DNA of 61,215 nucleotides from an uncultured Gammaproteobacteria bacterium (GTDB lineage: Bacteria; Pseudomonadota; Gammaproteobacteria; CAKMZV01), in assembly GCA_929200535.1 (NCBI GenBank), contig CAKMZV010000010.1, forward strand, positions 1 to 61,215, written 5' to 3'. The notes under the pieces were generated by a model that saw only the letters and a program-made list of their open reading frames with translations, searched no databases and was not told the DNA's origin. Shown here in pieces: positions 15,105 through 32,115 of the stretch (its first letter is position 1; the number at the start of each line of letters is the position of its first letter). The translations under genes were made by a program, and so were the position numbers.

Positions 15105-16354
15105 TGAGTAGGTATATTAATCTGTTTAATTTTATTAGGTAAATGAGTATGATAACCCATTGCAGTATCAGCAAGGAGGTTTTTTCCAAAAGAAAGTTTA
15201 TTTAAGTGTTTTAGTACGGATGGGCGAATGTCGGTAATGGCTGAATTTTGAAAGAGAAAATTGATGGTGTCCATCCCTGTTTGTAGTAGTTTGTATTCAC
15301 TGCGTTTTCGGGCATATTTTCGTAATATTAAAGGTTCGTTGATGGCGAGTTTATGGTCGTAGGCGTAGCCCATTATTTCTGTAAGCACAGAGGCATCACA
15401 TAAACCAAGATTAACTCCTTGCCCTGCCATAGGGTGAATGGTGCGTACCGCATCGCCAATAAGGAGTAGGTTTTCATTATAAAGGGTGTTTGCATCTGAG
15501 CGAATAATGGGGAATGCGTTAATTTCGTTTATCTCAGAAATTTTACCAAGCATTGCTCCAGAGGCTTGGTAAATAGTTTGTTTGTGTTGTTCGGATGTTT
15601 GTTCAAGGATTTTTGTACTTTGGTTTTCATCGACGTACCAGGCGATGGAGCAGGAGCCGTCGGCAAGTGGTAGAAAGGCAAATGCTAAGCCGTTATGATA
15701 ACGTTGCCAAGCGGTGTGTTGGTGAGGTTTTTCGGTGCGAACGTTGCCAACAATGCAGTGTTGATGATAGGGCTTTTGGGTACAGAGAATGCCACTCCAT
15801 TGGCGAATGGTGGATTTGGCTCCGTCGGCTCCAATAAGTAGTTTGCTTTGTATTTTTGTTGCTGAGGGGGAGTCGGCTGTGTTTATGGTCATTTCCATCC
15901 CTTGTTGGGCTGGTAATTTTTTAATTTTTTGCCATTCGCCAGTAATGATTTTACACGAGCTTTTGGCGAGTAGTCGCCAGCAAATATTTTGGATATGATT
16001 ATTTTCTATAATCCACGCAAGGTGTTGTTCGGGGTGTTGTTGGTTAAAGTGTAAGGAATGTTCCAGGTCTTTTTCCCATACTTGCATTGTATGTACTGGC
16101 TGAATGCGTTGCTCTAAAAGTTCTTGCCATACGCCAATTTGTTGTAAGAAATTTCTGACTACGGGAATAATGGCACTCACTCTAAGAGCATAGGGTCCAG
16201 TAGCGCCAAAGGGTTCAACGCTGGGTGGTGTTTTTTCAATTAAGGCAACCGAGAAGCCGATTTTTGCAAGCGATAGGGCAGTGGCAGCACCAATGATATT
16301 GCCACCAACAATGGTAATGTCAACGGTTTGAGTTTTGTTGTTTACGTTTGTCAT
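15101..16354 (-). CDS. ubiI: UbiI-like FAD-dependent ubiquinone hydroxylase (VisC family)
   Basis: The 417-residue FAD monooxygenase opens with a dinucleotide-binding motif (VGGNIIGAATALSLA, slightly altered from GxGxxG). It has the family pattern ALRVSAI near residue 57, LLIGADGAKSTIRQW for FAD/NADPH contacts, and GDAVRTIHPMAGQGVNLGL near the end. ALRVSAI and MQVWEKD resemble the UbiI/UbiF branch, and its place directly after ubiH matches E. coli visC/ubiI. The enzyme would hydroxylate the polyprenyl-phenol ring (C5 for UbiI). It overlaps ubiH by 4 bp. The branch within UbiI/UbiF/UbiM is not settled by sequence alone. Confidence 0.85.
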   Translation of the reverse strand: MTNVNNKTQTVDITIVGGNIIGAATALSLAKIGFSVALIEKTPPSVEPFGATGPYALRVSAIIPVVRNFLQQIGVWQELLEQRIQPVHTMQVWEKDLEHSLHFNQQHPEQHLAWIIENNHIQNICWRLLAKSSCKIITGEWQKIKKLPAQQGMEMTINTADSPSATKIQSKLLIGADGAKSTIRQWSGILCTQKPYHQHCIVGNVRTEKPHQHTAWQRYHNGLAFAFLPLADGSCSIAWYVDENQSTKILEQTSEQHKQTIYQASGAMLGKISEINEINAFPIIRSDANTLYNENLLLIGDAVRTIHPMAGQGVNLGLCDASVLTEIMGYAYDHKLAINEPLILRKYARKRSEYKLLQTGMDTINFLFQNSAITDIRPSVLKHLNKLSFGKNLLADTAMGYHTHLPNKIKQINIPTQ

Positions 16355-17667
16355 AGTGCTGATTTTTCTCGTAAAGAGTTGAGGCTTTTAAGAGTTTTCC
16401 AAAACCAAGGTGGGATTGTTTGTACGCCAGATAGGTGATGTAAAAAAGGTCGTCTTAAAGGAGTGGCTTTTTCAAAGCCAATCATCAGTAAGGTTCTTTG
16501 TAGGGTAGCCAGTTTACTGGGGGATGAAAAACGATCTAATAAATCATTCACAAAACGACGAATATTTTCAAGCGATTTTTGTTGGGTGTGAGCAAAACGC
16601 TGTAGGCTTTCTACGGTGCAGTCTGAAAGGGCAATTTGTTGTGCGATATTTTGCGCATCTTGCAAGCCTAAATTCAGCCCCTGTCCAGCGACTGGGTGCA
16701 AGCTGTGAGCTGCATTACCAATTAATAGTACGTTGTGTTTTTGCGTTTTGGTAGCAATGGTTTCTTTCATCGCATAAGTGGAGCGTGGGCTTAGGTGGAG
16801 AAATTGTCCATACTGCTTACCAAATAATTTTTCTAAGGTGGTCGTTAGTTGTTCTTCTGAAAGTTGCTCGTTTTTTAGTGTGTCGGCTTGAGTTTGTAAC
16901 CATACAGCGGAAGAGACATAGCCATTGGTTTCTTTTGTGGAAGATTTTGGGTTGCTAAGATGAGTGGGTAAAAATGCTAAGATGCCGTTGTTTAAAAAAC
17001 GCTCGTGGGCGATATTTTGGTGATGATTTTGATGAGTGATTTTGGTTAAGGTAGCTATTTGCTGATAATCTTTAACCGTAACAGGAAAATCAAAATACTG
17101 GCGAACTTGTGATTGTGTACCATCGGCAGCAATTAGGATTTTTCCTTGAAGAGAAATCGCTTCTTCATTTTTTTTCAGCGTCATACTGACCATAGAATAA
17201 TCATCAGATAATTCAATATGCTCAAAATCAATCCCATCAAATAAAGAGAAACCTTCCCCTTTTGCACATTCAGCAAATAGGCTCTCTTGCATTTTCTTGC
17301 CTAAATCAATAGAATTAACCGTGATGCCAAAATGGCTAAGATGCTCCCTTTCACTCTCCAATAAACAACTACCAAAATGCCCTTGCTGACTGACTCGAAT
17401 TGTTTTAATCGCTTGGGTGCTATCAGAAGAGGGCAAGCAATTAATAGAATTAAGCAAGCGAGAGCTCTCTAAATTCAATGCTAAAGTACGCCCATCAAAG
17501 CTGTTAGTTTGCTGGGTCGGTTTAGTGGGTTTTTCCCGTAAAGTATTTTTTTCAAGCAACGCACAACGCACCCCTTGCTGACTCAGCAACAAAGCTGCAC
17601 TAATCCCAACAGGACCTGCACCAACAATAATGGCATCAAAAAGCATTGGATTAGCTTGAGTATTCAT
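16351..17667 (-). CDS. ubiH: 2-octaprenyl-6-methoxyphenol hydroxylase UbiH
   Basis: The 438-residue FAD-dependent monooxygenase of ubiquinone biosynthesis carries GAGPVGISAALLLSQQG (Rossmann FAD site), DGRTLALNLES and the UbiH-type IRVSQQGHFG segment. It also has LIAADGTQSQVRQ and GNAAHSLHPVAGQGLNLGL. In E. coli ubiH directly follows pepP. Here about 12.6 kb of defence genes lie between the two, so this operon was opened by insertion. The gene begins 43 bp after the res stop codon in the transcription direction. Confidence 0.9.
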   Translation of the reverse strand: MNTQANPMLFDAIIVGAGPVGISAALLLSQQGVRCALLEKNTLREKPTKPTQQTNSFDGRTLALNLESSRLLNSINCLPSSDSTQAIKTIRVSQQGHFGSCLLESEREHLSHFGITVNSIDLGKKMQESLFAECAKGEGFSLFDGIDFEHIELSDDYSMVSMTLKKNEEAISLQGKILIAADGTQSQVRQYFDFPVTVKDYQQIATLTKITHQNHHQNIAHERFLNNGILAFLPTHLSNPKSSTKETNGYVSSAVWLQTQADTLKNEQLSEEQLTTTLEKLFGKQYGQFLHLSPRSTYAMKETIATKTQKHNVLLIGNAAHSLHPVAGQGLNLGLQDAQNIAQQIALSDCTVESLQRFAHTQQKSLENIRRFVNDLLDRFSSPSKLATLQRTLLMIGFEKATPLRRPFLHHLSGVQTIPPWFWKTLKSLNSLREKSAL

Positions 17668-17710: not shown

Positions 17711-20674
17711 TTAGTGAGTAGTAGAAGGGATTTGATCAATCAAGTTTGTATAGTTATCAGTAACGACATAGCGTGCTTCGGTTCCTAAAGCTTCAAAGTG
17801 TTTCCGACCACATTGAATTTTGGCATTTTCTACCACACGCAACTGATCTTCTAAAAGCTTTCCTTTGCTTTCAACGACAAAATAAAGTTTTTCCCTGCCA
17901 TCCATCTCTAAGAGCACTGCCCAATCTGGGTTATACGAACCAAGTGGGGTATCAATCTTAAACCAGTTTGGAAGTTTGGTGTACACTTTAATGTCTGAAT
18001 TTTTTTCAAAGGACTGCGCAAGATTAGATTCAATATCTGAATCATAGACAACATAATTATAGGTTGATTTTTGAGCCTCAAACATATTTTTATTCAAATA
18101 TCCAATCAGCTCTTCGCTTTCAAAAAGCTCTTGTGCATAAAAATGTTCATCACCGATTTTTTGATACTTGATACCATCAACAATAAAGTTTTGCATCTCA
18201 CTCTGAATCAATTGCTTAGCGCCATCAATAAATTTTTGAGGATTATTTTTAAAATCCTCAAAGCGCCCACTTTTGATTAGAATATCGACAATAGATTGCC
18301 TCTTAAGATTTGTTTCATTTTGCAGATAGCTTAAAATATCTGGAATTTGATAATCACGTGCATCGTATATATGTGTGCTTTCGTCGACTTGTTCAGCACT
18401 CACGCCACCTTTGCTAATCTCAGTTTTTGCACGGGAATACTCAAACTTAGTTTTGCCGACAATTAGATTTTCCCGAATGCTTTCCGCACATTTTTCAATA
18501 AGTTCCTCGGGATTGAAATTCACATTATAGACCGTTTTATATTTAATGCGATCCCACAGTTCTTTAAATTCAGGGTTATCAAATACCGCTTTATTTAGTT
18601 GTATCGTGCGCTTATTGTCATTATTCTTGATGTTAAGATCACCTGCCACTTTCTTGAGTGTTGCTGTGATGGCTTCTCGCTGTTTTTCAAATTGTTCTGG
18701 GAGTACAATCTTATCCTCTTTCAATGCCTTTTTAAGTTCATCAGTCACTTTACCACGTTGATCAATATATTGATTTTCTAAGAGGGCGTTCCAAATATTC
18801 TCAGAACTTTCTATACCCAAAAATACTTGTTCTCCATTATCTGTTTCAATCAAAATATTGGCAAAACTATGCTCTTCAATAACACCGAATTTAATGCCTT
18901 CCTCTTGCTCAATTTCCCGCTGTAATCCTTCAACAAAATTTTCATAGGATTCATTCGTCATAACAGTCAAGGTATTGACCTCAAAGCCATGAACACGTTC
19001 ACCACTTTGATTGACCGCTATACGCATCCCTCGTCCAATCTCTTGGCGTTTCTTGATGGTTGATTTGGTTTCATTTAGCGTACATATTTGGAAGACATTT
19101 GGATTGTCCCAGCCTTCTTTTAGGGCAGAGTGAGAAAAGATAAATTTCAACTTGGAATCAAAGCTAAGCAACTCTTCTTTTTTCTTCATAATCAGGCTGT
19201 AGGTATCCGCATCATCTACAGTTGTTCCCTTAGTATCTTTAAAATTTCCTTTTTTATCTTGTGAAAAATAACCATTATGAACATTATGAACCAGCTCTGG
19301 TAAAGTTTCACTATCTACTTCTTTGAATAAGCGATTGTATTTTGGTTTTTTGATGGCTTTGGTATATTCTTCTTCAAACATAATGGCATATTTGCCTTTT
19401 TGATTTGGTGCATCATAATCACGATAATTAGCAACTTTATCAATGAAAAACAAGCTCAAAACCTTAATCCCCATTGGTGTGAGTCTGAGTTCTTTATCCA
19501 AATGCTCCTCAATGGTTTTGCGGATTTGTAGGCGTTTATACTCATCCTCATTCACATCGCCAATAGAGTGGTGTAGGCGAATAATATCCTGTTTGCTGGT
19601 GAAATCGATATATTCGTTGCCCTCTTCGCAGTGAATATCATTCACTATATAACCATCATAAATAGTTCTACCACGAGAAAGGCTAAGAAAATCATCGCCT
19701 TGCTTAACCCATTTTTCAGTGCGTTTAACGTCATTTTTTTGCTGAATATCAAATGCTACCTTGGCACGGTGCCCGTTTCTGTTATCGACTGCGAGTAGCT
19801 TGATATACGCCTTATTATGCCCATCTTGCACTTGAATAGAGGCGACTTCAATTTGTTTTACTAATTTTTGCTCATAAGCATCAATAGAATCCAGTTTATA
19901 TAACATATTATGCTTATCGGTGTGCGTGGCAGAGTATCGGAAGGTACATAGCGGATTAAGGGACTGGAGTGCCACGGCTGCTTTAGGCGTAGTATCCACA
20001 CTTTGTGGCTCATCGATAATGACAATAGGATTGGTCTGTTTGATAAAATCAATTGGCACTCCATTCATTTTATCATTATGACGATGAATAATATTGGCAT
20101 TGGTTTCTTTGGATGAATCGGCAAAGCTTTTGCGGAACGCATCAATATTGATTACCATAATTTGGATAGAATCATTGGTGGCAAAACTGCGCACTTGCTC
20201 TAATCGCCCAGAGTTGTAGACAAAATAATCATACGGCACATTGTCATAGTGCTCCCGGAAGTGCTTTTCTGTCATTTGTAGCGATTTTAAAACGCCCTCT
20301 TTAATCGCAATACTTGGCACAACAATGATAAACTTAGTCAAGCCATATTTTTTATGCATCTCAAAAATTGAACGTAGATAAACATAAGTTTTTCCAGTTC
20401 CCGTTTCCATCTCAATCGTGAAGTCTCGGTTTTTCAGCTCTTTCGTTTGCTTTAAGCCATTATTGAGCTGAATTTTACGGACGTTTTCCTGTATTTCATC
20501 ATCAACAAGCTTGAGCTTATTGCCTGTACCATATTCATTAGCAAAATTTGATAAACTATAGCGTGTAGGCATCGTAAAAGTCGATTTATTCAACTCCTGT
20601 CCCTCAAATACTCTTACGGCAGATTCCCATGCACGGCGTTGGTGAGGTTGGTTTGGATCAAATTTAATCTTCAT
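17711..20674 (-). CDS. Type III restriction enzyme, Res subunit
   Basis: The 987-residue protein combines a superfamily 2 helicase core with a C-terminal nuclease. The Walker A motif METGTGKTYVYL lies near residue 92, and motif II reads IDEPQ (Res proteins often have DEPH). FSHSALKEGWDNPNVF and KKRQEIGRGMRIAVN (motifs V-VI) follow near residues 510-560. At the C-terminus, NPDWAVLLE and VVESKGK form a PD-(D/E)XK endonuclease site. With Mod it would cleave DNA after ATP-dependent translocation between unmethylated sites. Its ATG overlaps the stop of a 52-codon ORF that in turn overlaps mod, so all three are coupled. The gene appears intact. Confidence 0.95.
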   Translation of the reverse strand: MKIKFDPNQPHQRRAWESAVRVFEGQELNKSTFTMPTRYSLSNFANEYGTGNKLKLVDDEIQENVRKIQLNNGLKQTKELKNRDFTIEMETGTGKTYVYLRSIFEMHKKYGLTKFIIVVPSIAIKEGVLKSLQMTEKHFREHYDNVPYDYFVYNSGRLEQVRSFATNDSIQIMVINIDAFRKSFADSSKETNANIIHRHNDKMNGVPIDFIKQTNPIVIIDEPQSVDTTPKAAVALQSLNPLCTFRYSATHTDKHNMLYKLDSIDAYEQKLVKQIEVASIQVQDGHNKAYIKLLAVDNRNGHRAKVAFDIQQKNDVKRTEKWVKQGDDFLSLSRGRTIYDGYIVNDIHCEEGNEYIDFTSKQDIIRLHHSIGDVNEDEYKRLQIRKTIEEHLDKELRLTPMGIKVLSLFFIDKVANYRDYDAPNQKGKYAIMFEEEYTKAIKKPKYNRLFKEVDSETLPELVHNVHNGYFSQDKKGNFKDTKGTTVDDADTYSLIMKKKEELLSFDSKLKFIFSHSALKEGWDNPNVFQICTLNETKSTIKKRQEIGRGMRIAVNQSGERVHGFEVNTLTVMTNESYENFVEGLQREIEQEEGIKFGVIEEHSFANILIETDNGEQVFLGIESSENIWNALLENQYIDQRGKVTDELKKALKEDKIVLPEQFEKQREAITATLKKVAGDLNIKNNDNKRTIQLNKAVFDNPEFKELWDRIKYKTVYNVNFNPEELIEKCAESIRENLIVGKTKFEYSRAKTEISKGGVSAEQVDESTHIYDARDYQIPDILSYLQNETNLKRQSIVDILIKSGRFEDFKNNPQKFIDGAKQLIQSEMQNFIVDGIKYQKIGDEHFYAQELFESEELIGYLNKNMFEAQKSTYNYVVYDSDIESNLAQSFEKNSDIKVYTKLPNWFKIDTPLGSYNPDWAVLLEMDGREKLYFVVESKGKLLEDQLRVVENAKIQCGRKHFEALGTEARYVVTDNYTNLIDQIPSTTH

Positions 20675-20829
20675 ACTTCATCTCCTTTTTTACAACCGCG
20701 AAAGTCGCTAAAATCACGAAATTTTCCCATGGTTTTACAAACCTCAAAAGCCCCTTGAATGGCGTAGCATTCTTCCTTAAAAAGAATTTTTTCTACCTTT
20801 TCGTGCTTTTCGTGTATTTCGCGGTTCAT
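20671..20829 (-). CDS. 52-codon ORF linking mod and res, GxxExxxY-like remnant
   Basis: A small open frame begins at ATG 20829, which overlaps the mod stop (ATGA), and ends at TGA 20673-20671, which overlaps the res start (ATGA). Both junctions are therefore classic translational-coupling sites. The product begins MNREIHEKHEKVEK, continues with LFKEECYAIQGAFEVCKTMG and ends GCKKGDEV. The middle resembles the N-terminus of GxxExxxY-family proteins, but the GxxExxxY motif itself is gone, so the piece is probably a truncated remnant that stays open as a coupling peptide. The ends carry a short inverted repeat (ACCGCGAAA / TTTCGCGGT). Function unknown. Confidence 0.55.
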   Translation of the reverse strand: MNREIHEKHEKVEKILFKEECYAIQGAFEVCKTMGKFRDFSDFRGCKKGDEV

Positions 20830-22802
20830 CACAAGCTTTTGATATCTTCAATGCCGAGGCGTTTGAGGGTTTGTAGAGCATTGGTTTTGACGACATCATC
20901 CTTGAAACCATCATCCTTAAATACAACATGCATAATTTCAGGTTGTAATTCTTCTTTTAATGCACCGATACCATTGACAAGTTCCATCGTAATGCTTTGC
21001 TCTAAGCAAACAACTAAAGCTCCCAAGCCGATAGAGTAAACTGTTTTTTCAGCAATGGTGCGTGCCTCAATTGGCAAGGTGAGATCAAGGCCGTATTTTA
21101 AGAGTAATTCATATAGTACATCTTCGCTGGATCGATCCTGCTTGATATAATCAACAGCATTGAGAAGATCTTGCTCAAGCGTATCAAAACTAGGATCCCA
21201 GTGTTTGATGTTGGAGCTGTCGAGTTTGAAAACCTTAAAGCCAAGATCTCCTTTGTAGTCCGGTTTTTCTTTGGAAACTTCATTTGCAGATAAACGCATT
21301 CTTTCTTTTGATAATTCAGAAATATTTGAAAAACCTGCTTTGTAAGCCTCTGATTTAGGGTCGCAAATCTCAGGGATTTGCACCATTATATATTTAATAT
21401 TTCTTTGATACTCTGAATTGACTTTCATAACAGCATGGGCTGTGCTAGCTGAGCCACAGAAAAAATCCATTACTATAAAATCATTTTCTTCAAAAAGTGT
21501 TATTAAGGTTGATAGCAATCCCGTATTTTTTGGGGCTGGAAAAACAGCATCTTTAGTTCCAAATAATTCTTTTATGTGGGTACCTGCCGAGGTTGTTTTG
21601 ACATCCAGTTTAAAGTTAACTTTTTGGCCATTTATTACTGCCTCGTAATCTTTGTTTGTAAGAATGCTTTTGATACGGATTGAGCTGCTAAAGTTTTTCT
21701 CAAAAATTTTGTCTGACTTGAATTCTAAAGCTCGATCTTCAAATAATTCTAGGAGCTTATTTTTAGTATATGTATTCTCAATAAAAGAACCGTCTCGAGA
21801 AGAAATATAACGCACATATCCTTTTGAGATTAGATCTTGATTAAGGCTGTCAATGCTAGATTCTTGTTCCAATAGTATATGTTCTTTTTCAGCATTATAG
21901 TATGTGGAGTAATGCTTATCGGATGAAAAGTTAGTGACGTTTTTATTAAAACTATTCTCTCCAACTAGAACGCGCTTTCCACTATTGTGAACGAAGTTAC
22001 CATCCTCATCTTCTTTCATATCAGAGGCACTTTTAGGAATGTTCTCTACAAAAGAGCTGATTTCTTTATTTTTTGCGTAAATCAAGCAGTAATCATTACT
22101 AACTGAGATGAATCTAGAGTTCTTACGCCCTTTAGGGTTATTTTCAACAGATAATAAACCAACGTAATTCTCTTCTCCGAACACGTCATCAGAGAGTTTG
22201 ATAAGATTACCTAATTCATTATCATCAATCGAAATAAAAATCACCCCATCATCACGCAAAAGATTTCTAGCAAGCTTCAACCGTGGGTACATCATATTGA
22301 GCCAGTTGGTGTGGTAGCGTCCGGCGGTGTTGGCGTTGGTTCCCATTTTCTTGCCTTCGCTATCAAGCTGACCCGTTATTTCAAGGTAGTTTTGCACGCC
22401 GTCTTTGAAGTCGTCTTCGTAAATAAAGTCATTCCCTGTATTGTATGGTGGGTCAATATAGATCATCTTCACTTGGCGGTGGTAGGATTTTTGTAGCAGT
22501 TTGAGGACTTCAAGGTTATCGCCTTCAATAAATAAATTTTGCGTGGTGTCCCAATCAACACTTTCTTCTTTGCATGGACAGAGCGTTCCCGTGCTTGGTG
22601 TTTGTGCCAATCTTCCAGCCGCCCGTTTGCCATGCCAAGTGAAGTTGTAGTGTTCTTCATCGTCCACCACATAATTGCCAAGTAGTTCTTGCAATTGGTC
22701 AAAGTTGATTTTTCCCTCTGCAAAGATTTCAGGAAAGAGTTGTTTGAGCTGTTCAATATTTTGTTCGACAATATTGGCACTCTTGCCGTTTAGTTTTTCC
22801 AT
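20829..22802 (-). CDS. Type III DNA adenine methyltransferase, Mod subunit
   Basis: The 657-residue beta-class N6-adenine methyltransferase has DPPYNTGNDF (motif IV, about residue 117) ahead of DFFCGSASTAHAV (motif I, S-adenosylmethionine binding, about residue 445), the order expected of type III Mods. The region between them would contain the target-recognition domain and sets specificity. The N-terminus includes the Mod-type segment NFTWHGKRAAGR. It protects host DNA and provides recognition for Res. I see no tandem repeat in the gene that would make it phase-variable. It lies 11 bp after the DUF4917 gene. Confidence 0.95.
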   Translation of the reverse strand: MEKLNGKSANIVEQNIEQLKQLFPEIFAEGKINFDQLQELLGNYVVDDEEHYNFTWHGKRAAGRLAQTPSTGTLCPCKEESVDWDTTQNLFIEGDNLEVLKLLQKSYHRQVKMIYIDPPYNTGNDFIYEDDFKDGVQNYLEITGQLDSEGKKMGTNANTAGRYHTNWLNMMYPRLKLARNLLRDDGVIFISIDDNELGNLIKLSDDVFGEENYVGLLSVENNPKGRKNSRFISVSNDYCLIYAKNKEISSFVENIPKSASDMKEDEDGNFVHNSGKRVLVGENSFNKNVTNFSSDKHYSTYYNAEKEHILLEQESSIDSLNQDLISKGYVRYISSRDGSFIENTYTKNKLLELFEDRALEFKSDKIFEKNFSSSIRIKSILTNKDYEAVINGQKVNFKLDVKTTSAGTHIKELFGTKDAVFPAPKNTGLLSTLITLFEENDFIVMDFFCGSASTAHAVMKVNSEYQRNIKYIMVQIPEICDPKSEAYKAGFSNISELSKERMRLSANEVSKEKPDYKGDLGFKVFKLDSSNIKHWDPSFDTLEQDLLNAVDYIKQDRSSEDVLYELLLKYGLDLTLPIEARTIAEKTVYSIGLGALVVCLEQSITMELVNGIGALKEELQPEIMHVVFKDDGFKDDVVKTNALQTLKRLGIEDIKSL

Positions 22803-22813
22803 TGTTCCATTTT

Positions 22814-23923
22814 TTATTTATTAATTGAACCGCTATCAAAGAGGGTAATAAGATTCTTCTTTTTTGGTAGCCTCTGCTTTGCGTTAGCCATCTTTAAATC
22901 AGAATTTCCATTACCATTGGAAGAGACAGATACATAGACTTGAGTTATTTTACCATTATCATTGATAGCATCCCAAATATGGTTATCATTTTCAGATAAA
23001 GATACGCCATAAAGATAAATATTTCCTGTGATTTTTTTAAGTTGCTCTAATGCACTTTTCATATATTGATTGTTATTAATATCCTTTATCTTGTCTGTGC
23101 TTTTAAAAATAATATCCAAAGGTTTGCTTTCATCAATACGTTCAATAATACGTGATTTTAGAGTGTCTAATCTACCAACAGAGATTTTTTTAATTTCGCT
23201 CGTATCTTGATAGATATGTAATGCTCCATGAAGATAAAATAAGTTTTGATTTATATCTTCTTGCCATAAAAAATCTTTACGCTTTTTTAATGAAAAACCA
23301 TCGTTCATTTTCCAACCTGTTGTTTGAGATGTTCCTTTTTGTGATAGATAAGTCATCGCTTCTTTAATAAAAGCAGTTTTTTTACCTTTTGCGCTTAGAC
23401 AGGCAGCGTATAAAGTAGCTTTCTCTGTTTTATTTAAATCATCAAATAAACAATCGTTTGGAAGTAAAATATCATCAAACTCCTGTTCATGACCACTAAT
23501 CAATTGTCCAAATTCAGATGTTATTTGCTTATTTTTTTTTGCTAAATAGAGAGCGATCTTGTACAGAAATGGGTCGTAATTTAATGTAAATATGTTATTA
23601 AACTTACTTATAAAATTCCCCGCTTCTTCTTTACTATCCTCTGCATTTTGAACGATTCTCATCAAGGCTTTGATAAAATCAGTTGTGATTGCTTTTTTTG
23701 CTAATGGTTCTTTATACTTGTCTAATAATTTCTCTAAATCATAATCTACTTTTTGCAAGTTACGTAGTTGATAATTATTTGGGTCATTACTTTCCATAGC
23801 CTCAAATAAATTGCGATAGCCAGAATCATAACCAAAATTTAGGTTAAATCCGTTTCCAGTTAGAAGGGTATTAGTTTGTTCAGCTTTATAAATCTCTGAA
23901 AAATTTTTAATGGTATCATTCAT
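22814..23923 (-). CDS. DUF4917 (SIR2-like) protein in the restriction island
   Basis: The 369-residue protein opens with LLTGNGFNLNFGY (about residues 20-32), resembling the glycine-rich nucleotide site of SIR2-like folds. FTLNYDPFLY follows near residue 113, NLFYLHGALHIY near residue 227 and IYLYGVSLSENDNHIW near residue 301. These match the pattern of the DUF4917 family, often found beside phage-defence genes. SIR2-like domains in defence commonly degrade NAD+, but whether this one is catalytic cannot be judged here. It sits between the RhuM fragment and mod, all on one strand with short gaps. Confidence 0.75.
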   Translation of the reverse strand: MNDTIKNFSEIYKAEQTNTLLTGNGFNLNFGYDSGYRNLFEAMESNDPNNYQLRNLQKVDYDLEKLLDKYKEPLAKKAITTDFIKALMRIVQNAEDSKEEAGNFISKFNNIFTLNYDPFLYKIALYLAKKNKQITSEFGQLISGHEQEFDDILLPNDCLFDDLNKTEKATLYAACLSAKGKKTAFIKEAMTYLSQKGTSQTTGWKMNDGFSLKKRKDFLWQEDINQNLFYLHGALHIYQDTSEIKKISVGRLDTLKSRIIERIDESKPLDIIFKSTDKIKDINNNQYMKSALEQLKKITGNIYLYGVSLSENDNHIWDAINDNGKITQVYVSVSSNGNGNSDLKMANAKQRLPKKKNLITLFDSGSINK

Positions 23924-23951
23924 AATAGTTCCTCAATTATTTCTGGTTGTT

Positions 23952-24191
23952 TTAGAAGGCTGTCATTTTGCCATCTTTGGCAGTTGTCAAGAAATCCTTG
24001 ACAACTGAATTTTCCGATAATTCATTGTCTTCAAAAATATTTTTCAGGTGAAGGCTAATATTCTGTTTTGTTGTATTGAACAATTCAGCCATCTCTCCTT
24101 GTGTTAGCCAAACAGTGCCGTCAATCGCTTGCAGGCTAATTTCAGATAGTCCGTCTTCCGTTTGATAAATAATGATTTCACCGTTATTCAT
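23952..24191 (-). pseudogene. RhuM-family protein, N-terminal fragment
   Basis: The 79-codon frame holds the RhuM N-terminus: EIIIYQTEDG, TVWLTQGEMAELF and TTKQNISLHLKNIFEDNEL, then VVKDFLTTAKDGK. Full-length RhuM proteins continue for another 200-250 residues after this point, but here the frame ends with MTAF and a stop. It is therefore a truncated remnant. The preserved part resembles a small DNA-binding module, so residual activity cannot be excluded. RhuM genes are frequent passengers of restriction-modification loci. Confidence 0.75.
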
Positions 24192-24203
24192 AGTATTTCC
24201 TTC

Positions 24204-24959
24204 CTATAAGCTCTGCTCTAATTGTTTAATGGCATCTTGCCGTTCTTTAATTGAAATATTCAGGCTTAGTTTTTTGTTAAATTGCGTTTCTTTTTTTAAG
24301 GTGGTTCGCAGTTCAGCAATCTCTCTTTCTAATTTTATTATCTGGGTTAGGTTTTGTTGGCGCTCTTGTGTTTTTTCTGATGAGACAATTTGGTAATTAC
24401 CATTTCGGGTGGCACTATTCAGTGCAATCACACGATTTTTAATATCAGTGTAAAAGGAGTAGAAGTTGACGAAAGATAAGTTCTTTATGCCCATATCTTG
24501 CATAAATTGTTGCTGTGCTTCATTGGGCATATCGGGGTTAAACCATTTGGTCATCCAAGCGTCTTCCACCACCCATTTGGATTTATCAGCTTGATTGATA
24601 CGTTTGTCTGCTACGCTGATTGCAATGGTGTTGGAGAGGTTGAAAATAAGAATAATCGGGTAGGGAATGGCTTTATTGATAAAGTTTGCTATGCGTTGAG
24701 CACGGTTGACATTGGATAGGTTAATTTGGATGATGGCAATTTCATCATATTCACGTATAGTATCCCGATAGGGGGGGATATTGATTGTAGAGGTTTTTAG
24801 CGTATAGATCCAGTGGATTTTTTCAATATCATCCTTTAGGGCTTTTTTATCTGTGGTATCAAGTTCGGTATGTTCTTGAAATAGTTTTTTGAATAACGGC
24901 TTATTCAGCAGGCATTTTTCAGGGATTTCCATATAGTCATAGAAGGTTTGCATTGGCAT
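24204..24959 (-). CDS. DUF4391 protein
   Basis: The 251-residue protein matches the DUF4391 pattern: an N-terminal region with KIHWIYTLKTSTINIP, then EYDEIAIIQI, PYPIILIFN and WVVEDAWMTKWFN. A C-terminal coiled coil (about residues 195-250) is rich in Glu/Lys/Gln. DUF4391 genes are typically found between a large helicase and type III-like mod/res genes, as here. It overlaps the helicase gene by 23 bp, so the two are coupled. Biochemical function is unknown. Confidence 0.75.
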   Translation of the reverse strand: MPMQTFYDYMEIPEKCLLNKPLFKKLFQEHTELDTTDKKALKDDIEKIHWIYTLKTSTINIPPYRDTIREYDEIAIIQINLSNVNRAQRIANFINKAIPYPIILIFNLSNTIAISVADKRINQADKSKWVVEDAWMTKWFNPDMPNEAQQQFMQDMGIKNLSFVNFYSFYTDIKNRVIALNSATRNGNYQIVSSEKTQERQQNLTQIIKLEREIAELRTTLKKETQFNKKLSLNISIKERQDAIKQLEQSL

Positions 24960-27900
24960 TCACCTCCTTGATAATTAGATAGCTTATCACTTCAAAGTCT
25001 TCAAGGGCAGAGAAGTTATCTTGTGTTAGTGAAGTGCCGCCACGGCTGAATAGGCTTTCAATGCCTTTTTCTTCTGTTTTGCCAATAATGGATTGAATGG
25101 TTGCTTCTAACATATATTGATAGGTGCTCATATTTTTGCCGTTTTGGGTGGTTTTATTTAAATTGGCAACGGCTTGAGTATCAATTGTCTTGTTTATCGA
25201 GCAGAGTTTTTTAAAAATGTCGAGGCTTTTTTTGCTTTGTAGGTGGTTGTAGATAATGGTTCCATCTTCAGCTACATACACGATGTAGTAAGGTGAAAGT
25301 GCATAGTGTGGGTCAAGTTCAACTTTGCCGTGAATGTCTTTTAGGCAGAATATGGCTCCTGGCGTTATGTCCTCTATGTTCGTGCCGTTTTGACTAATAG
25401 TAGCATAGAATCCAGAGGGAGTGCTTTCAAGCTGTTCCATATTGTCTTTCATAAAACCTGATAGGTCCATACGGAAGTCATTTAGGGTCATATCCGTGAT
25501 TGAGACGTTGCCGTCCATATCCTCTAGGTCTAATACAGAATCTTGAAGTTGTTCCATTTGGTGGCGTCGATATTCCAGATCGTTCATCTGTTTTTTTTCA
25601 TCATAATCAATGAGGTTTTCTTCACCCGTGGCAGAAATATCAAGAAGTACCATACGCCCACTGACACGTGCTTCAAGGTTGATGTATTCATCTAATTCTA
25701 TATTTGGCCAGAAGTTGGCAAGCTGAATCTTGGCATTGTGAGAACCAAGGCGATCAACACGTCCAAAACGTTGGATAATACGCACTGGGTTCCAGTGGAT
25801 GTCGTAATTGATAAGCATATCACAGTCTTGCAGGTTTTGCCCTTCAGAAATGCAGTCAGTGGCAATGAGAATATCAATCTCTGTGGTGGCGTCGGGGGTG
25901 GTTTTATTCCGTTCTTTGGAAAGGGGGGAGAAGTGGGTAAGGAGGTTGTTAAAGTCTTTATCAATTTTTTGTATCGTGCATTGACGGCTTTGTCCTGTAA
26001 TCAGTGCAGATTCTAAACCTAATTTGTCCTTTAACCATGGGGATAATTCTTTATAGAGGTATTCAGCAGTATCGGCAAAAGCAGTAAAAATAATGGCTTT
26101 GTTGTTTCCAGTGTTGATAGGTGTTTGAGTTTTTTTCTCTAAAAATTCTTTTAGTTTTAAGAGTTTTGCATCTTTTGAGGGGGTGATTTTTTCAGCTTGT
26201 TCCCAAAGTGTATCTAAGATTTTTCTATCTTCTTGTAAGTCTTCTTTCCAGCGGATTAAATCCATATCTTGGATTAAGACTTTTGTTTTATTGCCAATGA
26301 GATGATCTTCTAAGTATGGGTCGTCAATTTGAATATCTTCAATGCGCAGGTCTTCAAAATTAATGTCTTTATGTTCTTCAATTTTGGTGAGGAGGTTGTG
26401 GTTGATGTCGCTGAGTTTCATCAGGGATATTCCAAAAGAGTCAATGGAGCTTTCTAATCGTTTTAAAAGATTGACGCGCATTAGGTGGATTAAATTTTGT
26501 TCTCGGTCGGTTTGGCGAAAGGTGGATTTTCCGTCTTTAATTTTTTGGTCGTATCGGCGATTATATTCTTCTTTTTTATCCATACGGACGTACTTAAGGG
26601 GTGTGTAGGCGGCAAGGTTGAGTTTTTTAATGGCTATATTGACTTCGTTTAGTGGCGGGAATTGAGCGTTGGTGTCAATGTCCGCTTTGATATTGATGGG
26701 TTTTAAACGTTCGGGAAATTTGCCAATTTCAGCGACATCATAGTATTTTTCAATGTGCTTACGTGAACGGGCAATAGTCAGTAAGTCGAGTAGTTTGAAA
26801 TAATCAAAATTTATATTCTCTAATAAAACGTAGGTTTTACGCTGATTTTCGGATAATTTAAGCCATTGATTGAAGTTCGTTTGTGCTTTTTTTAGGGTGT
26901 TGTGAATACTGGTAATGCCTTGTTCTTTATAGGCAGTGTCATTTCCTTCTGTGATAAAAGCAATTTGATTTTTTAAATCGTTCATTCGATTGTTTACAGG
27001 TGTTGCTGAAAGCATTAGGACTTTTGTTTTAACACCTGATTTAATAATTTTGTCCATCAGTTTTTTATAACGTGTAACGCCTTCTGCTTTGGTGCCACTG
27101 TTGCGAAAGTTGTGGGATTCATCAACTACCAAAAGATCATAATTTCCCCAGTTCAATGTTTCTAAATTAATTTCACCTGATTTGCCTTTTTGGCGTGATA
27201 AGTCAGTGTGGTTTAATATATCATAATTAAATCGGTCTGAGGCAAGAAGGTTGCGGTTATCGTTGATGGTGTAAACACTCCAGTTTTCACGCAATTTTTT
27301 AGGGCATAGTACCAGCACTCGATCATTGCGAAGTTCATAGTATTTGATAATGGCAAGGGCTTCAAAGGTTTTTCCCAAGCCCACACTATCAGCAATAATA
27401 CAGCCATTGTATTTTTCTAATTTGTCAATCGCTCCAATAACGCCATCGCGCTGGAATTTATAGAGTTTATTCCAAACAAGAGTATTTTTAATTCCAGTCT
27501 TTGAGCGGATAAGGTTTTCTTCATCAATATCTGCTAAATAATTTTTAAAAATGTTATAGAGGGTAATGAAGTAGATTAAGTTTGCAGGTTTGTCTTGAGC
27601 AAGATAATCTAAGTGCGTGAGAAGTTCATTTTGAATTTCCTGAGTGGCAGTATTGTCGTTCCAAAGGGTATTAAACCATTGAAGAAGTTGGTTGGTTGTA
27701 TCGGTGTCATAGATGCCCATATTAATTTCAAGCATATCTGATTTGATTTCCCCTAAACCGCTTGCGGTAAAATGCGAGCCGCCTTGGATAACAAATGATT
27801 CATTATTATTTTGGAGATGAAACATGTTTTGTGGTGGAAATTCCATCTTTTCTTTTATTGCACGCGCATTTACATTTTTTTTAATCCACGTTGCACATTC

Positions 27901-28155
27901 TTTTGCTATATGGCTTTGAGTTAGTTTGTTTTTGAGTTGTGTTTCTTGGATTGTTCCCGAAAGGGTATGTAATGATTGTTTATCCCAACGTGAGTACATT
28001 AATCGAATGGTATCGAGTGCTGAGAGTTCTTTGCGTAAGGAGTGAAATCCGTAAATAGAAAAAAGCCCAGTAAGAATAGCAAGTTTAGAGTTTGCTTTTA
28101 TGTTTTTTTTTAATTCAGAAATGACCGTTCCGTGTGCTCTATTATCCAGTAGCAT
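24937..28155 (-). CDS. SNF2-type helicase with N-terminal PLD-like domain
   Basis: The 1072-residue protein begins with a phospholipase-D-like domain: residues 1-150 include GGSHFTASGLG at about 125-135. The HxK half is replaced by HLQ at 113-115, so the PLD site is probably inactive. The SNF2/SWI2 ATPase follows, with ADSVGLGKTFEAL (Walker A, 255-267), VVDESHNFRN (motif II), LSATPVNNR (motif III) and IQRFGRVDRLGS (motif VI). Such proteins move on DNA in restriction-linked systems. It is the upstream gene of the run helicase, DUF4391, RhuM fragment, DUF4917, mod, res and is preceded by three direct repeats. Confidence 0.88.
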   Translation of the reverse strand: MLLDNRAHGTVISELKKNIKANSKLAILTGLFSIYGFHSLRKELSALDTIRLMYSRWDKQSLHTLSGTIQETQLKNKLTQSHIAKECATWIKKNVNARAIKEKMEFPPQNMFHLQNNNESFVIQGGSHFTASGLGEIKSDMLEINMGIYDTDTTNQLLQWFNTLWNDNTATQEIQNELLTHLDYLAQDKPANLIYFITLYNIFKNYLADIDEENLIRSKTGIKNTLVWNKLYKFQRDGVIGAIDKLEKYNGCIIADSVGLGKTFEALAIIKYYELRNDRVLVLCPKKLRENWSVYTINDNRNLLASDRFNYDILNHTDLSRQKGKSGEINLETLNWGNYDLLVVDESHNFRNSGTKAEGVTRYKKLMDKIIKSGVKTKVLMLSATPVNNRMNDLKNQIAFITEGNDTAYKEQGITSIHNTLKKAQTNFNQWLKLSENQRKTYVLLENINFDYFKLLDLLTIARSRKHIEKYYDVAEIGKFPERLKPINIKADIDTNAQFPPLNEVNIAIKKLNLAAYTPLKYVRMDKKEEYNRRYDQKIKDGKSTFRQTDREQNLIHLMRVNLLKRLESSIDSFGISLMKLSDINHNLLTKIEEHKDINFEDLRIEDIQIDDPYLEDHLIGNKTKVLIQDMDLIRWKEDLQEDRKILDTLWEQAEKITPSKDAKLLKLKEFLEKKTQTPINTGNNKAIIFTAFADTAEYLYKELSPWLKDKLGLESALITGQSRQCTIQKIDKDFNNLLTHFSPLSKERNKTTPDATTEIDILIATDCISEGQNLQDCDMLINYDIHWNPVRIIQRFGRVDRLGSHNAKIQLANFWPNIELDEYINLEARVSGRMVLLDISATGEENLIDYDEKKQMNDLEYRRHQMEQLQDSVLDLEDMDGNVSITDMTLNDFRMDLSGFMKDNMEQLESTPSGFYATISQNGTNIEDITPGAIFCLKDIHGKVELDPHYALSPYYIVYVAEDGTIIYNHLQSKKSLDIFKKLCSINKTIDTQAVANLNKTTQNGKNMSTYQYMLEATIQSIIGKTEEKGIESLFSRGGTSLTQDNFSALEDFEVISYLIIKEVNANANLL

Positions 28156-28168
28156 ATTTAATCAATTT

Positions 28169-28262
28169 AAGATTTGTTTGTATCGCTTAGGTAAATCATC
28201 AGGAGTCATAAAATTATTTGTGTTGCATAAGTGAGTCACAAAATTGTTTGTGTCGCATAAGT
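28169..28262. repeat. Three direct repeats upstream of the helicase gene
   Basis: The 157-bp gap between the helicase start and the DUF4276 stop holds two adjacent 30-bp units (28203-28232 and 28233-28262) that differ at three positions. A third, more diverged 24-bp copy lies at 28169-28192. The shared core reads TTTGTGT(C/T)GCATAAGT (TTTGTATCGCTTAGGT in the diverged copy). They lie 14-107 bp before the helicase ATG, where operator sites would be expected. They are too few and too closely spaced to be a CRISPR array. Confidence 0.8.
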
Positions 28263-28312
28263 CAAATTGTATTTTCACGTTTAGTTAATGGATTGTTTTG
28301 AATGATGAATTG

Positions 28313-28942
28313 TTAGGTGATATCAATTCTGAGACTTTTTAAGGTTTTTAATAAATGATCAAAGCTTTTAGATTTATTTCTATCTGAATTTAAATTGAGA
28401 TGTTTTCCAATAAGCCTTGAGCCTTTTATTTTTTGATACTTATTTTTCGTGATTTTTTGCAACTCTTCATTAGCGTTTTTCAGCTTATTATCAGGGTTTC
28501 GATAGTTTTTATTTTGTTGTGAGGGGAGTTTACACTCAAGGGCTTTTTCAACTGCTTTGAGATCGCCCAGATAAAAACTTTCTAATTCATGACAGGCAAT
28601 ACGGACGATGGTTTGATCTGCTTTTCCTGCCTCTTGAGCTTTTTGTAATAATTGTTGTTTCAGTTCCCTACAATCCGATGAATCTTGATCTCTGAGGATG
28701 ATAAATTTCGCATTAGGGTTAGAGTATCCTTTGAGTCTTTTACCTACTTGCTTATCTAAATCTTGTTTCCCTTCAAAAACAATGTAACGAGTTGAGATAT
28801 TGTGAAGAGATAAATTTTCAAGCACTTGCTCAAGCATTGCTTTGGCGCTATTTTCTTCTAATAGAAAAACGACTTCTGTTGTTCTCTGAACTTGATTCAC
28901 TTGAATTATGGGGCGATTTTTCCAAAAAACCCTTGTTTCCAC
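28313..28942 (-). CDS. DUF4276 protein, partner of an AAA ATPase
   Basis: The 209-residue protein contains VVFLLEENSAKAML, FEGKQDLDKQV, FIILRDQDSSDCREL and RIACHELESFYLGDL, the acidic conserved segments of DUF4276. This family has been linked to TOPRIM-type nucleases paired with ABC/AAA ATPases in phage defence. The ATG at 942 lies 37 bp inside the ATPase gene. Homologues start close to the VVFLLEE segment, so a later non-ATG start is possible. It probably acts as the effector of the two-gene system; the activity is inferred. Confidence 0.8.
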   Translation of the reverse strand: METRVFWKNRPIIQVNQVQRTTEVVFLLEENSAKAMLEQVLENLSLHNISTRYIVFEGKQDLDKQVGKRLKGYSNPNAKFIILRDQDSSDCRELKQQLLQKAQEAGKADQTIVRIACHELESFYLGDLKAVEKALECKLPSQQNKNYRNPDNKLKNANEELQKITKNKYQKIKGSRLIGKHLNLNSDRNKSKSFDHLLKTLKSLRIDIT

Positions 28943-30114
28943 AAATAGCCCATTTTATCTCCATTTTTCATATATTCAGCAATTTGTGAATCTTCACTTG
29001 CTTTTACAATGGAGGTATAACCCTCTTTTTTTTCTAACCAAAAAACCTCATCTAAATTAACAGCATTAAGAAAATCAGGGGAGTGAGTGGAAACAAATAC
29101 TTGTTCTCCACGATTAGCGTATTCTCTAAACTCTTCTGCAAGTTCTTCTAATAAAGAATGGTAAAGTTGATTCTCAGGCTCTTCAATGCAGAGCAATGGG
29201 TGTGGTTTGGGATCGTGCAGTAGCACTAAATATGCTAGCATTTTTATCGTCCCGTCCGAAACATTTCTTGCTAAAAAAGGATCTTCAAATGCACCATCTT
29301 GAAATTTTAACAACACCCTTCCTTCCTCGGTAACTTTTGATTCAATTTGACTCAAGCCAGGTATGCGATCTTTTAACGTGTCAATAATTTTATTAAAATT
29401 GGGACGGTAATTTTTATATAAGTATTGAATAACAATAGAAAGATTATCGCCCTCTTGCGATAAATGCTCTGCATAGGAGACTTCTTTTTCAGGGCGTGCT
29501 TTATCAATGTGTAAATCAGAAATGTGCCATTTTTCAATCAAAGCCCCTAAGGCAACGACTGCCGGAAATTTTTCAAATTGAGCTAACCCTTTGATGGCTA
29601 AAATATCGTCTGATTTCAATTTTTGTGTTTCACGTACAAGTTCTGTATCATCGTTGACTTGTTCTAATTCATTGGTAACTGCATTTCCTGAGCCCTTAGA
29701 AAAATCTAAAAATTTCCATGGTTGCCCTTTTCTTCCACGACGATATTGTAAGGTTTCTTGCTTAATAAAAGCCTGCCCTGTTGTTGGTCTTTCATCTATT
29801 TCCAAAATATAAGTAATCAAGGGGTTGCTACCACTCTTATTTTTAACTTTAGGGCTTCTAAACTTGATGGTTATTTTGATAGGGTCCTCGGAGCCTCTAC
29901 TACGCACATCTTGAAAACCTCTTAAGCCACCGAGTTGATTAAGTGCGGTAGAGACATCCCCTATCATTGCTTCATGTAAAAAGCTAAAGACAGAAAAAAT
30001 AGTGCTTTTCCCTGTTCCATTTGCACCGACAATTACGCAAAAACGACTAATATTATCCATTTTCGCATTTTTAAATGCCTTGAAGTTATTTAATTCTAAT
30101 GATTCTATTTTCAT
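28906..30114 (-). CDS. AAA (ABC/OLD-like) ATPase of a two-gene defence pair
   Basis: The 402-residue protein has Walker A GANGTGKST at about residues 33-41 in an N-terminal KIESLELNNFKAFKN context. Near the C-terminus are an ABC-like signature (RNVSDGTIKML), Walker B LLCIEEPENQLY and the switch VSTHSPDFL. These features place it in the AAA_21/AAA_15 group of SMC-like ATPases, as in OLD, PARIS and related anti-phage systems. It overlaps the DUF4276 gene by 37 bp. Its 3' neighbour partner and location in a restriction island argue for phage defence. The trigger and target are unknown. Confidence 0.88.
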   Translation of the reverse strand: MKIESLELNNFKAFKNAKMDNISRFCVIVGANGTGKSTIFSVFSFLHEAMIGDVSTALNQLGGLRGFQDVRSRGSEDPIKITIKFRSPKVKNKSGSNPLITYILEIDERPTTGQAFIKQETLQYRRGRKGQPWKFLDFSKGSGNAVTNELEQVNDDTELVRETQKLKSDDILAIKGLAQFEKFPAVVALGALIEKWHISDLHIDKARPEKEVSYAEHLSQEGDNLSIVIQYLYKNYRPNFNKIIDTLKDRIPGLSQIESKVTEEGRVLLKFQDGAFEDPFLARNVSDGTIKMLAYLVLLHDPKPHPLLCIEEPENQLYHSLLEELAEEFREYANRGEQVFVSTHSPDFLNAVNLDEVFWLEKKEGYTSIVKASEDSQIAEYMKNGDKMGYLWKQGFFGKIAP

Positions 30115-31595: not shown

Positions 31596-32115
31596 GACAT
31601 AAATAAATGCAAGTACGCATAAATTCTGTGACTTCCATTAAATCTAAGTCAAATTGTTCAATGTTGAGTTGTTTTTCTCTTTTCTCATCAGTGCTCCCAA
31701 GATAGCGGTGCAGTTGTCGTTGAGTTTTTTGTAGGATGTTTATCCATTCTTCAATTTCAGCATTTTTAGCAGCTGCTTGGATGGCGTTACTGATAGCGTA
31801 GCAATAGGTATAGCCATCAATCCATTGTGCGATTGATTGGATTTTTTCAATAGTGTCCTCACTTTCAAAGGAGTTTGGCATTTTTAAAGCAAGGTCATTA
31901 TTTTGCAGTTGTTGATCAATTTTTTTAGCGTATTCAATGAGTGCTTTTTGTTCTTTTTTAGATAAACCATCGGTCATTGATTGTATTTGTTCTAACCAAT
32001 GGTTGTTTTCCATTTCTAAGGGATGGCATAGGAGAGCACAGAGTGAACCATGTAGCATACTTTCACTTGCTAACGTTGGCGAGTGGTTAAAGAGGAGCTG
32101 TAATTCTTGAGTCAT
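31555..32115 (-). CDS. ygfB: UPF0149 family protein (YgfB/YecA type)
   Basis: The 186-residue all-helical protein shows the UPF0149 pattern: SMLHGSLCALLCHP near the N-terminus, then IAQWIDGYTYCYAISNA in the middle, and FDLDLMEVTEFMRTCIYL at the C-terminus. YgfB has been connected with regulation in Pseudomonas but its general role is unclear. It overlaps pepP by up to 41 bp and follows metG by 1 bp. The ygfB-pepP neighbourhood is a Gammaproteobacterial marker. Confidence 0.9.
   Translation of the reverse strand: MTQELQLLFNHSPTLASESMLHGSLCALLCHPLEMENNHWLEQIQSMTDGLSKKEQKALIEYAKKIDQQLQNNDLALKMPNSFESEDTIEKIQSIAQWIDGYTYCYAISNAIQAAAKNAEIEEWINILQKTQRQLHRYLGSTDEKREKQLNIEQFDLDLMEVTEFMRTCIYLCREIWSYEKNKPIH

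Follow-up and report, generated by a model that had tools for sequence, protein, structure and literature searches.

A candidate extended Type III restriction-modification system combining a nuclease-dead second motor with an exchangeable effector gene in an uncultured gammaproteobacterium

The textbook Type III restriction-modification (R-M) system consists of two genes, mod and res. In the window examined here, a stretch of 61,215 nucleotides (contig CAKMZV010000010.1, positions 1 to 61,215) from an uncultured Gammaproteobacteria bacterium, this pair belongs to a longer gene run that also encodes an SNF2 helicase with a phospholipase D-like (PLD-like) N-terminal domain (HEL) and a protein of the DUF4391 family. 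HEL, DUF4391, Mod and Res very probably constitute one system. With modest confidence, this system can be read as an extended Type III R-M system that combines a second, nuclease-dead motor with a swappable backup effector, the effector in the window being a DUF4917 protein.

The four core genes lie on the minus strand. HEL (24937-28155) is classified by PADLOC, Pfam and motif content as an SNF2/DrmD-like DNA motor whose PLD-like domain has lost its catalytic site, and the DUF4391 protein (24204-24959) is a probable adaptor between motor and methyltransferase. Mod (20829-22802) is a Type III N6-adenine DNA methyltransferase with target recognition, and Res (17711-20674) is a Type III helicase carrying a PD-(D/E)XK nuclease. 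Two further genes of the same strand stand between DUF4391 and Mod, namely a truncated RhuM gene (a 79-amino-acid (aa) open reading frame (ORF), 23952-24191), regarded as the remnant of earlier cargo, and the gene for the SIR2-like DUF4917 protein (22814-23923), the present cargo and a predicted NADase effector. The original prediction for this DNA had named five genes (helicase, DUF4391, DUF4917, Mod and Res), all of which are present on the minus strand, and the 23-bp overlap it reported between HEL and DUF4391 agrees with the coordinates. Its range of 20671-28155 contains the other genes but takes in no more than 4 bases of Res, at the start of that gene, and its description of short gaps is not fully accurate: DUF4391 and DUF4917 are separated by 280 bp, which house the truncated RhuM gene that it had overlooked.

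The association of the four genes was examined in 109 loci (designated L with a number), which remained after removal of two duplicates (L087 and L088) and comprise the window, 24 genome stretches, 6 plasmid records and 78 loci from a scan of genome contigs. The helicase-drawn loci are the best 80 of 586 confirmed stretches and therefore no random sample, the remaining loci having been drawn by DUF4391; pairs with HELs at least 90% identical (L054/L057, L069/L071, L080/L084, L083/L114 and L109/L122) were kept, and L033 and L051 share a genome of origin. HEL, DUF4391, Mod and Res are all present, in that order and on one strand, in 84 of the 109 loci, two of which (L028 and L068) contain split ORFs. 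Contig ends account for 22 of the 25 incomplete loci, which stop at most 1.6 kb past the last core gene or have the missing gene beyond the edge. Deviations are found in L035, where DUF4391 is present and Mod and Res are absent from the next 9.6 kb, and in the archaeal L112, where Mod is broken and Res is absent from the next 4 kb; L100 is doubtful, as just an N-terminal piece of DUF4391 occupies its remaining 1.4 kb. The complete loci represent 17 named phyla, with no phylum recorded for 24 of the 84, and one of them is an archaeal plasmid. On an Acinetobacter plasmid (L052:2993-19533), the system stands downstream of TnsA, a Mu-type transposase, TniB and TniQ, as if it were the cargo of a Tn7-like element.

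Gene presence across a phylum sample of 398 genomes, the window's included, gives a similar picture. DUF4391 occurs in 23 of these genomes and a strong match to HEL (E < 1e-200) in 21 (25 at E 1e-20), the window's genome being counted in both, and the two are found together in 20 (Fisher p 1.5e-29). The three genomes with DUF4391 and no HEL (G110, G114 and G345) have the gene near a contig edge each time, and in G110 part of HEL can be seen at that edge; among the genomes with HEL, only G160 gave no Pfam match to DUF4391. A separate search of 94 genomes detected DUF4391 in two, one of which is the window's. In 95 loci HEL and DUF4391 are direct neighbours, overlapping by 4 nt in 41 and lying within 60 nt of each other in 89, and this spacing points to translational coupling. 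The non-random linkage to mod and res that had been anticipated for the additional genes is thus confirmed for HEL and DUF4391, which almost always accompany each other and Mod-Res and therefore belong to the restriction machine. Small genes upstream of HEL, such as a hypothetical 78-aa gene at 5 to 325 bp in the L054-L057 plasmids and a 65-aa helix-turn-helix gene in L053, may be controllers; HEL in the window is preceded by a gap of 157 bp, too short for a gene of this kind.

Mod and Res themselves conform to the Type III pattern. The window Mod aligns with EcoP15I Mod (PDB 4zcf_A, E 3e-59) as an N6-adenine methyltransferase, and Res aligns with EcoP15I Res (PDB 4zcf_C, E 3e-66), uniting a superfamily 2 (SF2) ATPase with a C-terminal PD-(D/E)XK nuclease (RE_endonuc domain). 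As in EcoP15I-type systems, the DPPY, Walker, PD and ExK motifs are kept in all rows checked, including DPPY in 81/81 Mod and PD and ExK in 77/77 Res sequences; the difference from these systems lies in the conserved HEL and DUF4391 genes and in the effector slots. Fourteen Type III loci that carry both Mod and Res, from genomes in which no HEL was found, served as controls; from an initial 17, L144 and L154 were excluded for a HEL on another contig, and L146 for the absence of Mod and the presence of DUF4391 in its genome. In two loci (L143:7112-9961 and L148:6568-9498), another SNF2 helicase, in which no PLD domain was detected, stands directly upstream of Mod-Res without DUF4391, and the helicase of L143 scores 705 bits to PADLOC DrmD.

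HEL combines an invariant motor with a degenerate nuclease site. Its best PADLOC profile is C3a139 'HKD+Snf2' (441 bits, residues 65-1060), also the top profile for seven other PLD-SNF2 HELs that were scanned, and Pfam recognises SNF2 and Helicase_C domains. All 99 HELs conserve the motor motifs GLGKT, DESH and QR-GR--R. In contrast to relatives with an intact site, the window protein gives no Pfam detection of a PLD domain at E 0.1. The motif HxK(x4)D was rejected as a test of the PLD site, since it is found in 0/99 HELs and is also missing from most live-site relatives; HxK in register with the following G-S-x-N element was adopted instead. By this measure the site is absent in 98/99 HELs, among them the window protein, which has no HxK at the aligned columns, and in all 89 HELs whose locus includes Mod or Res. 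A bare HxK within the first 300 residues is present in 17/99 HELs, of which 16 have it misplaced (L077 being the nearest) and one, L090, has it in register. The inactive-looking PLD site noted in the earlier reading of this DNA is hence substantiated by the missing catalytic motif, which also rules out HEL as the nuclease of this locus. An hhalign comparison between the N-terminal part of HEL and three cargo proteins of the PLD type returned a probability of 3.8%, so that the PLD origin of the domain in the window is deduced from the PADLOC label, the alignment of intact-site relatives and L090.

The in-register HxK is retained in 7/7 distant relatives (L155, L188, L176, L177, L178, L179 and L193), none of which has Mod or Res within the stretch read. 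An Eco57I-type methyltransferase directly follows the helicase in L176-L179, and a weak match to this type lies two genes upstream of it in L193. L155:6954-14237 and L188:6458-13350 combine a live-PLD SNF2 helicase with an Eco57I-type methyltransferase instead of Mod-Res, and L189-L192, of which L192 is split and which were retrieved by the same search as L188, contain Mod-Res and lack HxK within their first 300 residues. When the FastTree phylogeny is rooted on its five most distant rows with a live site, L155 and L188 adjoin the group holding the 99 HELs (branch support 97). L090:3-3170 is an intact-site helicase close to the Mod-Res-linked HELs on a 3.3-kb contig with no visible partner, and its placement inside the 99-HEL group is poorly supported (40 and 10). 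The distribution of the motif is consistent with loss of the PLD nuclease upon association of the motor with Res.

The DUF4391 protein matches PF14335 with 226 bits, above the Pfam cut-off, and is modelled with a mean pLDDT of 96.9 and a pTM of 0.91 as an alpha/beta domain followed by a C-terminal helical hairpin. Its structure had no match at E 0.001 or below in either the PDB or BFVD, a collection of viral structures; VIA-align superimposed mainly the hairpin (residues 190-251) and barely covered the alpha/beta domain, a profile search of PDB sequences gave weak matches only, and neither PADLOC nor phage records yielded a match. Clues to its role come from the two live-site loci. In L155, the ORF after HEL is a weak DUF4391 relative (17 bits in Pfam, below the cut-off; hhalign probability 92%, E 7e-7, 110 columns). 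In L188, a DUF4391-like segment, 43% identical to that of L155 over 289 residues, starts a 1213-aa ORF in frame with the Eco57I-type methyltransferase. Because the DUF4391-like and methyltransferase ORFs of L155 overlap in different frames, this locus may hold one frameshifted fusion gene too. These fusions, one or two in number and thin as evidence, suggest from their sequences that DUF4391 works with the methyltransferase, and physical contact between the two appears reasonably likely. A tandem pair of DUF4391 genes is present in L086:13256-14679.

The gene run is frequently interrupted by additional genes, and cargo was defined as a sense ORF of at least 100 aa between core genes. Such cargo is present in 42 of the 84 complete loci and absent from the other 42, and it occupies the HEL-DUF4391 slot in 4, the DUF4391-Mod slot in 20 and the Mod-Res slot in 33 of the 84. 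Among 82 cargo ORFs across all loci, 50 were compared with Pfam, and a family could be assigned to 35 of these (E at most 0.001, a few below the family cut-off). These families include RhuM, Fic, zeta toxin, GmrSD, HipA, AAA_13, UvrD helicases and Schlafen AlbA_2, as well as DarT with a macro-domain protein, a SMODS nucleotidyltransferase with an S_4TM effector, a DUF1016/YhcG nuclease, a PLD nuclease, an ATPase with PDDEXK_9, and AAA_21 with DUF4276. The last pair occupies the Mod-Res slot in L121 and is found immediately upstream of HEL in the window. In Methanobrevibacter (L112:14102-16465), the DUF4391-Mod slot holds a 787-aa protein of AAA_13, a Pfam family that probably includes PrrC-like proteins.

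In the window, this slot, filled in other loci by genes such as RhuM, zeta toxin or GmrSD, appears to retain a trace of turnover. Residues 4-75 of the 79-aa ORF share 57% identity over 72 aa with the RhuM cargo of L082 (E 3e-26) and 40-44% with three other cargo RhuM proteins, the similarity covering only the N-terminal part of RhuM and then stopping. No further RhuM piece was detected in the window at E 0.1, and the ORF on its own has no Pfam match at E 0.01. It begins 12 bp past DUF4391, DUF4917 begins 28 bp beyond it, and DUF4917 ends 11 bp short of Mod. Since the truncated RhuM gene sits beside DUF4917 in the slot, the arrangement most likely records the replacement of a RhuM cargo by DUF4917.

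DUF4917 itself is no part of the core. The window protein scores 56 bits, above the Pfam cut-off, and is assigned to PDC-S21 by PADLOC. A profile built from it, together with the Pfam comparison of the 50 cargo ORFs, finds the family in 1/84 complete loci, the window itself. In the phylum sample it occurs in 14/398 genomes, of which 12 lack DUF4391; the two genomes with both families are the window's and G241, where they are on different contigs. A core role is excluded by these counts, and the linkage to mod and res that holds for HEL and DUF4391 fails for DUF4917. The proposal that the helicase, DUF4391 and DUF4917 form one additional layer of defence accordingly has to be divided: HEL and DUF4391 belong to the restriction machine and DUF4917 is replaceable cargo, although its proposed role as an NAD-depleting backup is plausible from the modelled SIR2 fold and the conserved N and H motifs.

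The motifs GNG, NYD, HG and DxH are present in 10/10 aligned DUF4917 members, including N115, D117 and H232, residues that presumably form the NADase site as in other SIR2 NADases. Foldseek placed SIR2-HerA first (E 3.6e-4, probability 1.00), and the first 22 rows are SIR2-type proteins or SIR2-carrying systems. The VIA-align rows shown likewise belong to SIR2-type proteins or SIR2-carrying systems (Z 12.7 to 9.4), the first, titled HerA, having Z 12.7 over 259 residues at an rmsd of 5.5. The two best matches of the DUF4917 profile among PDB sequences are SIR2-like domains, both weak (E 0.099 and 0.71); the window protein alone gave weak matches only, and no relatives were found in viral contigs. 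DUF4917 thus models as a SIR2 fold and is predicted, with good probability, to be an NADase.

These features can be combined into a mechanism in which Mod would methylate host sites and, together with Res, recognise unmethylated sites on invading DNA. HEL, having lost its own PLD nuclease, would act as a DNA-translocating SNF2 motor that DUF4391, as an adaptor, would join to the methyltransferase complex. It might thereby supply processive translocation or roadblock clearance, which the Type III enzyme lacks, with the cut being performed by Res; the chances that HEL serves Res cleavage are about even. The DUF4391-Mod slot would house a backup effector, in the window DUF4917 as the successor of the RhuM gene, which would most probably hydrolyse NAD once restriction fails and halt phage growth via growth arrest or cell death. 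A role of the cargo as coupled backup is, on balance, probable. More tentatively, HEL-DUF4391 may be a portable, methyltransferase-docked motor module that uses its own PLD nuclease when paired with Eco57I-type methyltransferases and gave it up at least once on joining Mod-Res, yielding a two-motor, one-nuclease machine whose gene run serves as a bay for exchanging abortive-infection effectors.

Several findings weigh against this interpretation. Type III loci without HEL-DUF4391 exist, and HEL presence changes 8 times on a Res tree of 91 rows (10 times in the initial 94, which included three rows later removed as doubtful, vs 15.9 in shuffles), so that HEL-DUF4391 has been gained or lost repeatedly. 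L155 and L188 have HEL without Res, and HEL may therefore not serve Res. The live-site L090 branches inside the dead-site group with its neighbours beyond the contig end, which implies two PLD-site changes on the tree, either two losses or a misplaced L090; moreover, long branches weaken this tree and its root is unsure. The DUF4917 model has a low mean confidence (pLDDT 61; pTM 0.66). Finally, 4/14 controls (L138, L140, L141 and L143) have a gene of at least 100 aa between Mod and Res, Fic being among them, vs 33/84 extended loci (Fisher p 0.56). Because the controls match in this respect, cargo is a trait of such Type III loci generally, and its use as a hallmark of the extended form was dropped.

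Alternative explanations differ mainly in the role they assign to HEL-DUF4391. It has been considered that the locus contains two restriction arms with a shared methyltransferase, HEL-DUF4391 being an arm of its own, similar to DISARM or Type IIG, for which translocation would suffice to act on unmethylated DNA, such as through protein stripping or replication block, while Res cuts separately. The pairing of HEL and a DUF4391-like part with an Eco57I-type methyltransferase in L155 and L188, where Res is missing, is in keeping with this arrangement, as are the Type III loci that lack HEL; nevertheless, the absence of the nuclease motif from every HEL with Mod or Res in its locus fits reliance on Res, and the two-arm explanation is judged unlikely. 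A control module is less likely still. The dead PLD domain and the motor would then remodel Mod-Res on DNA so as to keep self-damage low, or detect phage anti-restriction and set the cargo effector free, which would agree with the retention of a dead nuclease domain in the family, with the joining of a DUF4391-like part to a methyltransferase and with the 20/84 complete loci that carry cargo between DUF4391 and Mod. However, the invariant motor motifs suggest work on DNA, and, with 42 of the 84 complete loci lacking any cargo ORF of at least 100 aa, cargo release cannot be the general role of HEL-DUF4391.

Compatible with any of these views of the core is the possibility that the cargo, DUF4917 included, consists of defence-island hitchhikers with no tie to it. 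The cargo-free half of the complete loci, the 12/14 DUF4917 genomes without DUF4391 and the equal cargo frequency in control loci all speak for hitchhiking; the counted cargo, on the other hand, lies on the operon strand and is unevenly distributed over the slots (4, 20 and 33 of 84), many of its families are toxin- or defence-like as judged by family names rather than by enrichment statistics, and PrrC provides a precedent for coupling. Hitchhiking is regarded as doubtful. That the window merely holds a plain Type III mod-res pair with chance neighbours is extremely improbable: defence genes do tend to cluster, but co-occurrence and fixed order across many phyla contradict such an explanation.

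The extended Type III reading can also be placed among known systems. The helicase family is already contained in a defence catalogue, since C3a139 is the best profile of HEL, although the HKD site named in that label is lost in the Mod-Res-linked members. DrmD of class 1 DISARM is the next-best family (145 bits in PADLOC; 171 bits in NCBIfam, below the cut-off of 610), and DISARM likewise places a motor beside an adenine methyltransferase; here, by contrast, the methyltransferase is of Type III and the Res nuclease is present, and the PADLOC matches listed for seven island proteins include no DrmA, DrmB or DrmC other than a DrmA helicase cross-match of HEL. PrrC-PrrI resembles the window in having an effector gene inside an R-M gene run; the defined four-gene core with its recurrent slots, the remnant of one exchange and DUF4917 as effector set the present system apart. 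DUF4917 shares structural matches and conserved N/H motifs with SIR2 NADases (SIR2-HerA, ThsA, DSR2 and KomC); unlike these, it sits in a Type III R-M gene run, and its activity is a prediction.

R-M-coupled toxins are an established idea. Toxins coupled to R-M loci are discussed with PrrC-PrrI as the model (PMC3710099, PMC3506569), RhuM and Doc are placed beside R-M genes (PMC3710099), and Sir2 and toxin displacement are proposed for Type I and III R-M loci (PMC3506569). Two further papers mention HKD-helicase fusions in BREX-related and CxC-ATPase systems (PMC12839542, PMC10853773), and DUF4391 appears in an enrichment table within a host-range study. No description of the four-gene core was found in the open-access literature searched, and an earlier one elsewhere is possible; PDC-S21 had no mention in the same literature. 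A widespread four-gene form with a second, nuclease-dead motor would alter the annotation of Type III systems, which are generally regarded as enzymes of two genes, and would give the uncharacterised DUF4391 family a role. The live PLD without Res and the dead PLD with Res offer a natural pair for studying nuclease exchange in restriction machines, and the slots and RhuM remnant allow the exchange of backup effectors to be tracked in one fixed setting.

The core and its cargo form part of a defence island (17711-30114) that also contains a neighbouring pair assigned by PADLOC to HEC-01, composed of a DUF4276 protein (28313-28942, also identified by Pfam) and an AAA_21/AAA_15 ATPase (28906-30114; HEC-01B, 622 bits; AAA_21), both on the minus strand. 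The transcription order in the window is AAA_21 ATPase, DUF4276, HEL, DUF4391, 79-aa ORF, DUF4917, Mod and Res. Flanking the island are pepP and ubiH-/ubiI-like genes (15101-17667 and 30270-31595), which show 36% identity to E. coli PepP and 29% and 33% in the ubi genes; ubiH and ubiI adjoin pepP in E. coli K-12, and the island genes face the same direction as the pepP/ubi gene run. The ORF at 31555-32115 has no blastp match to E. coli ygfB, and scans for promoters and terminators gave no signal above shuffle level. Between 33947 and 34766, a small ORF precedes one of 147 aa, and by eye the two resemble a PIN-domain (VapC-like) toxin pair.

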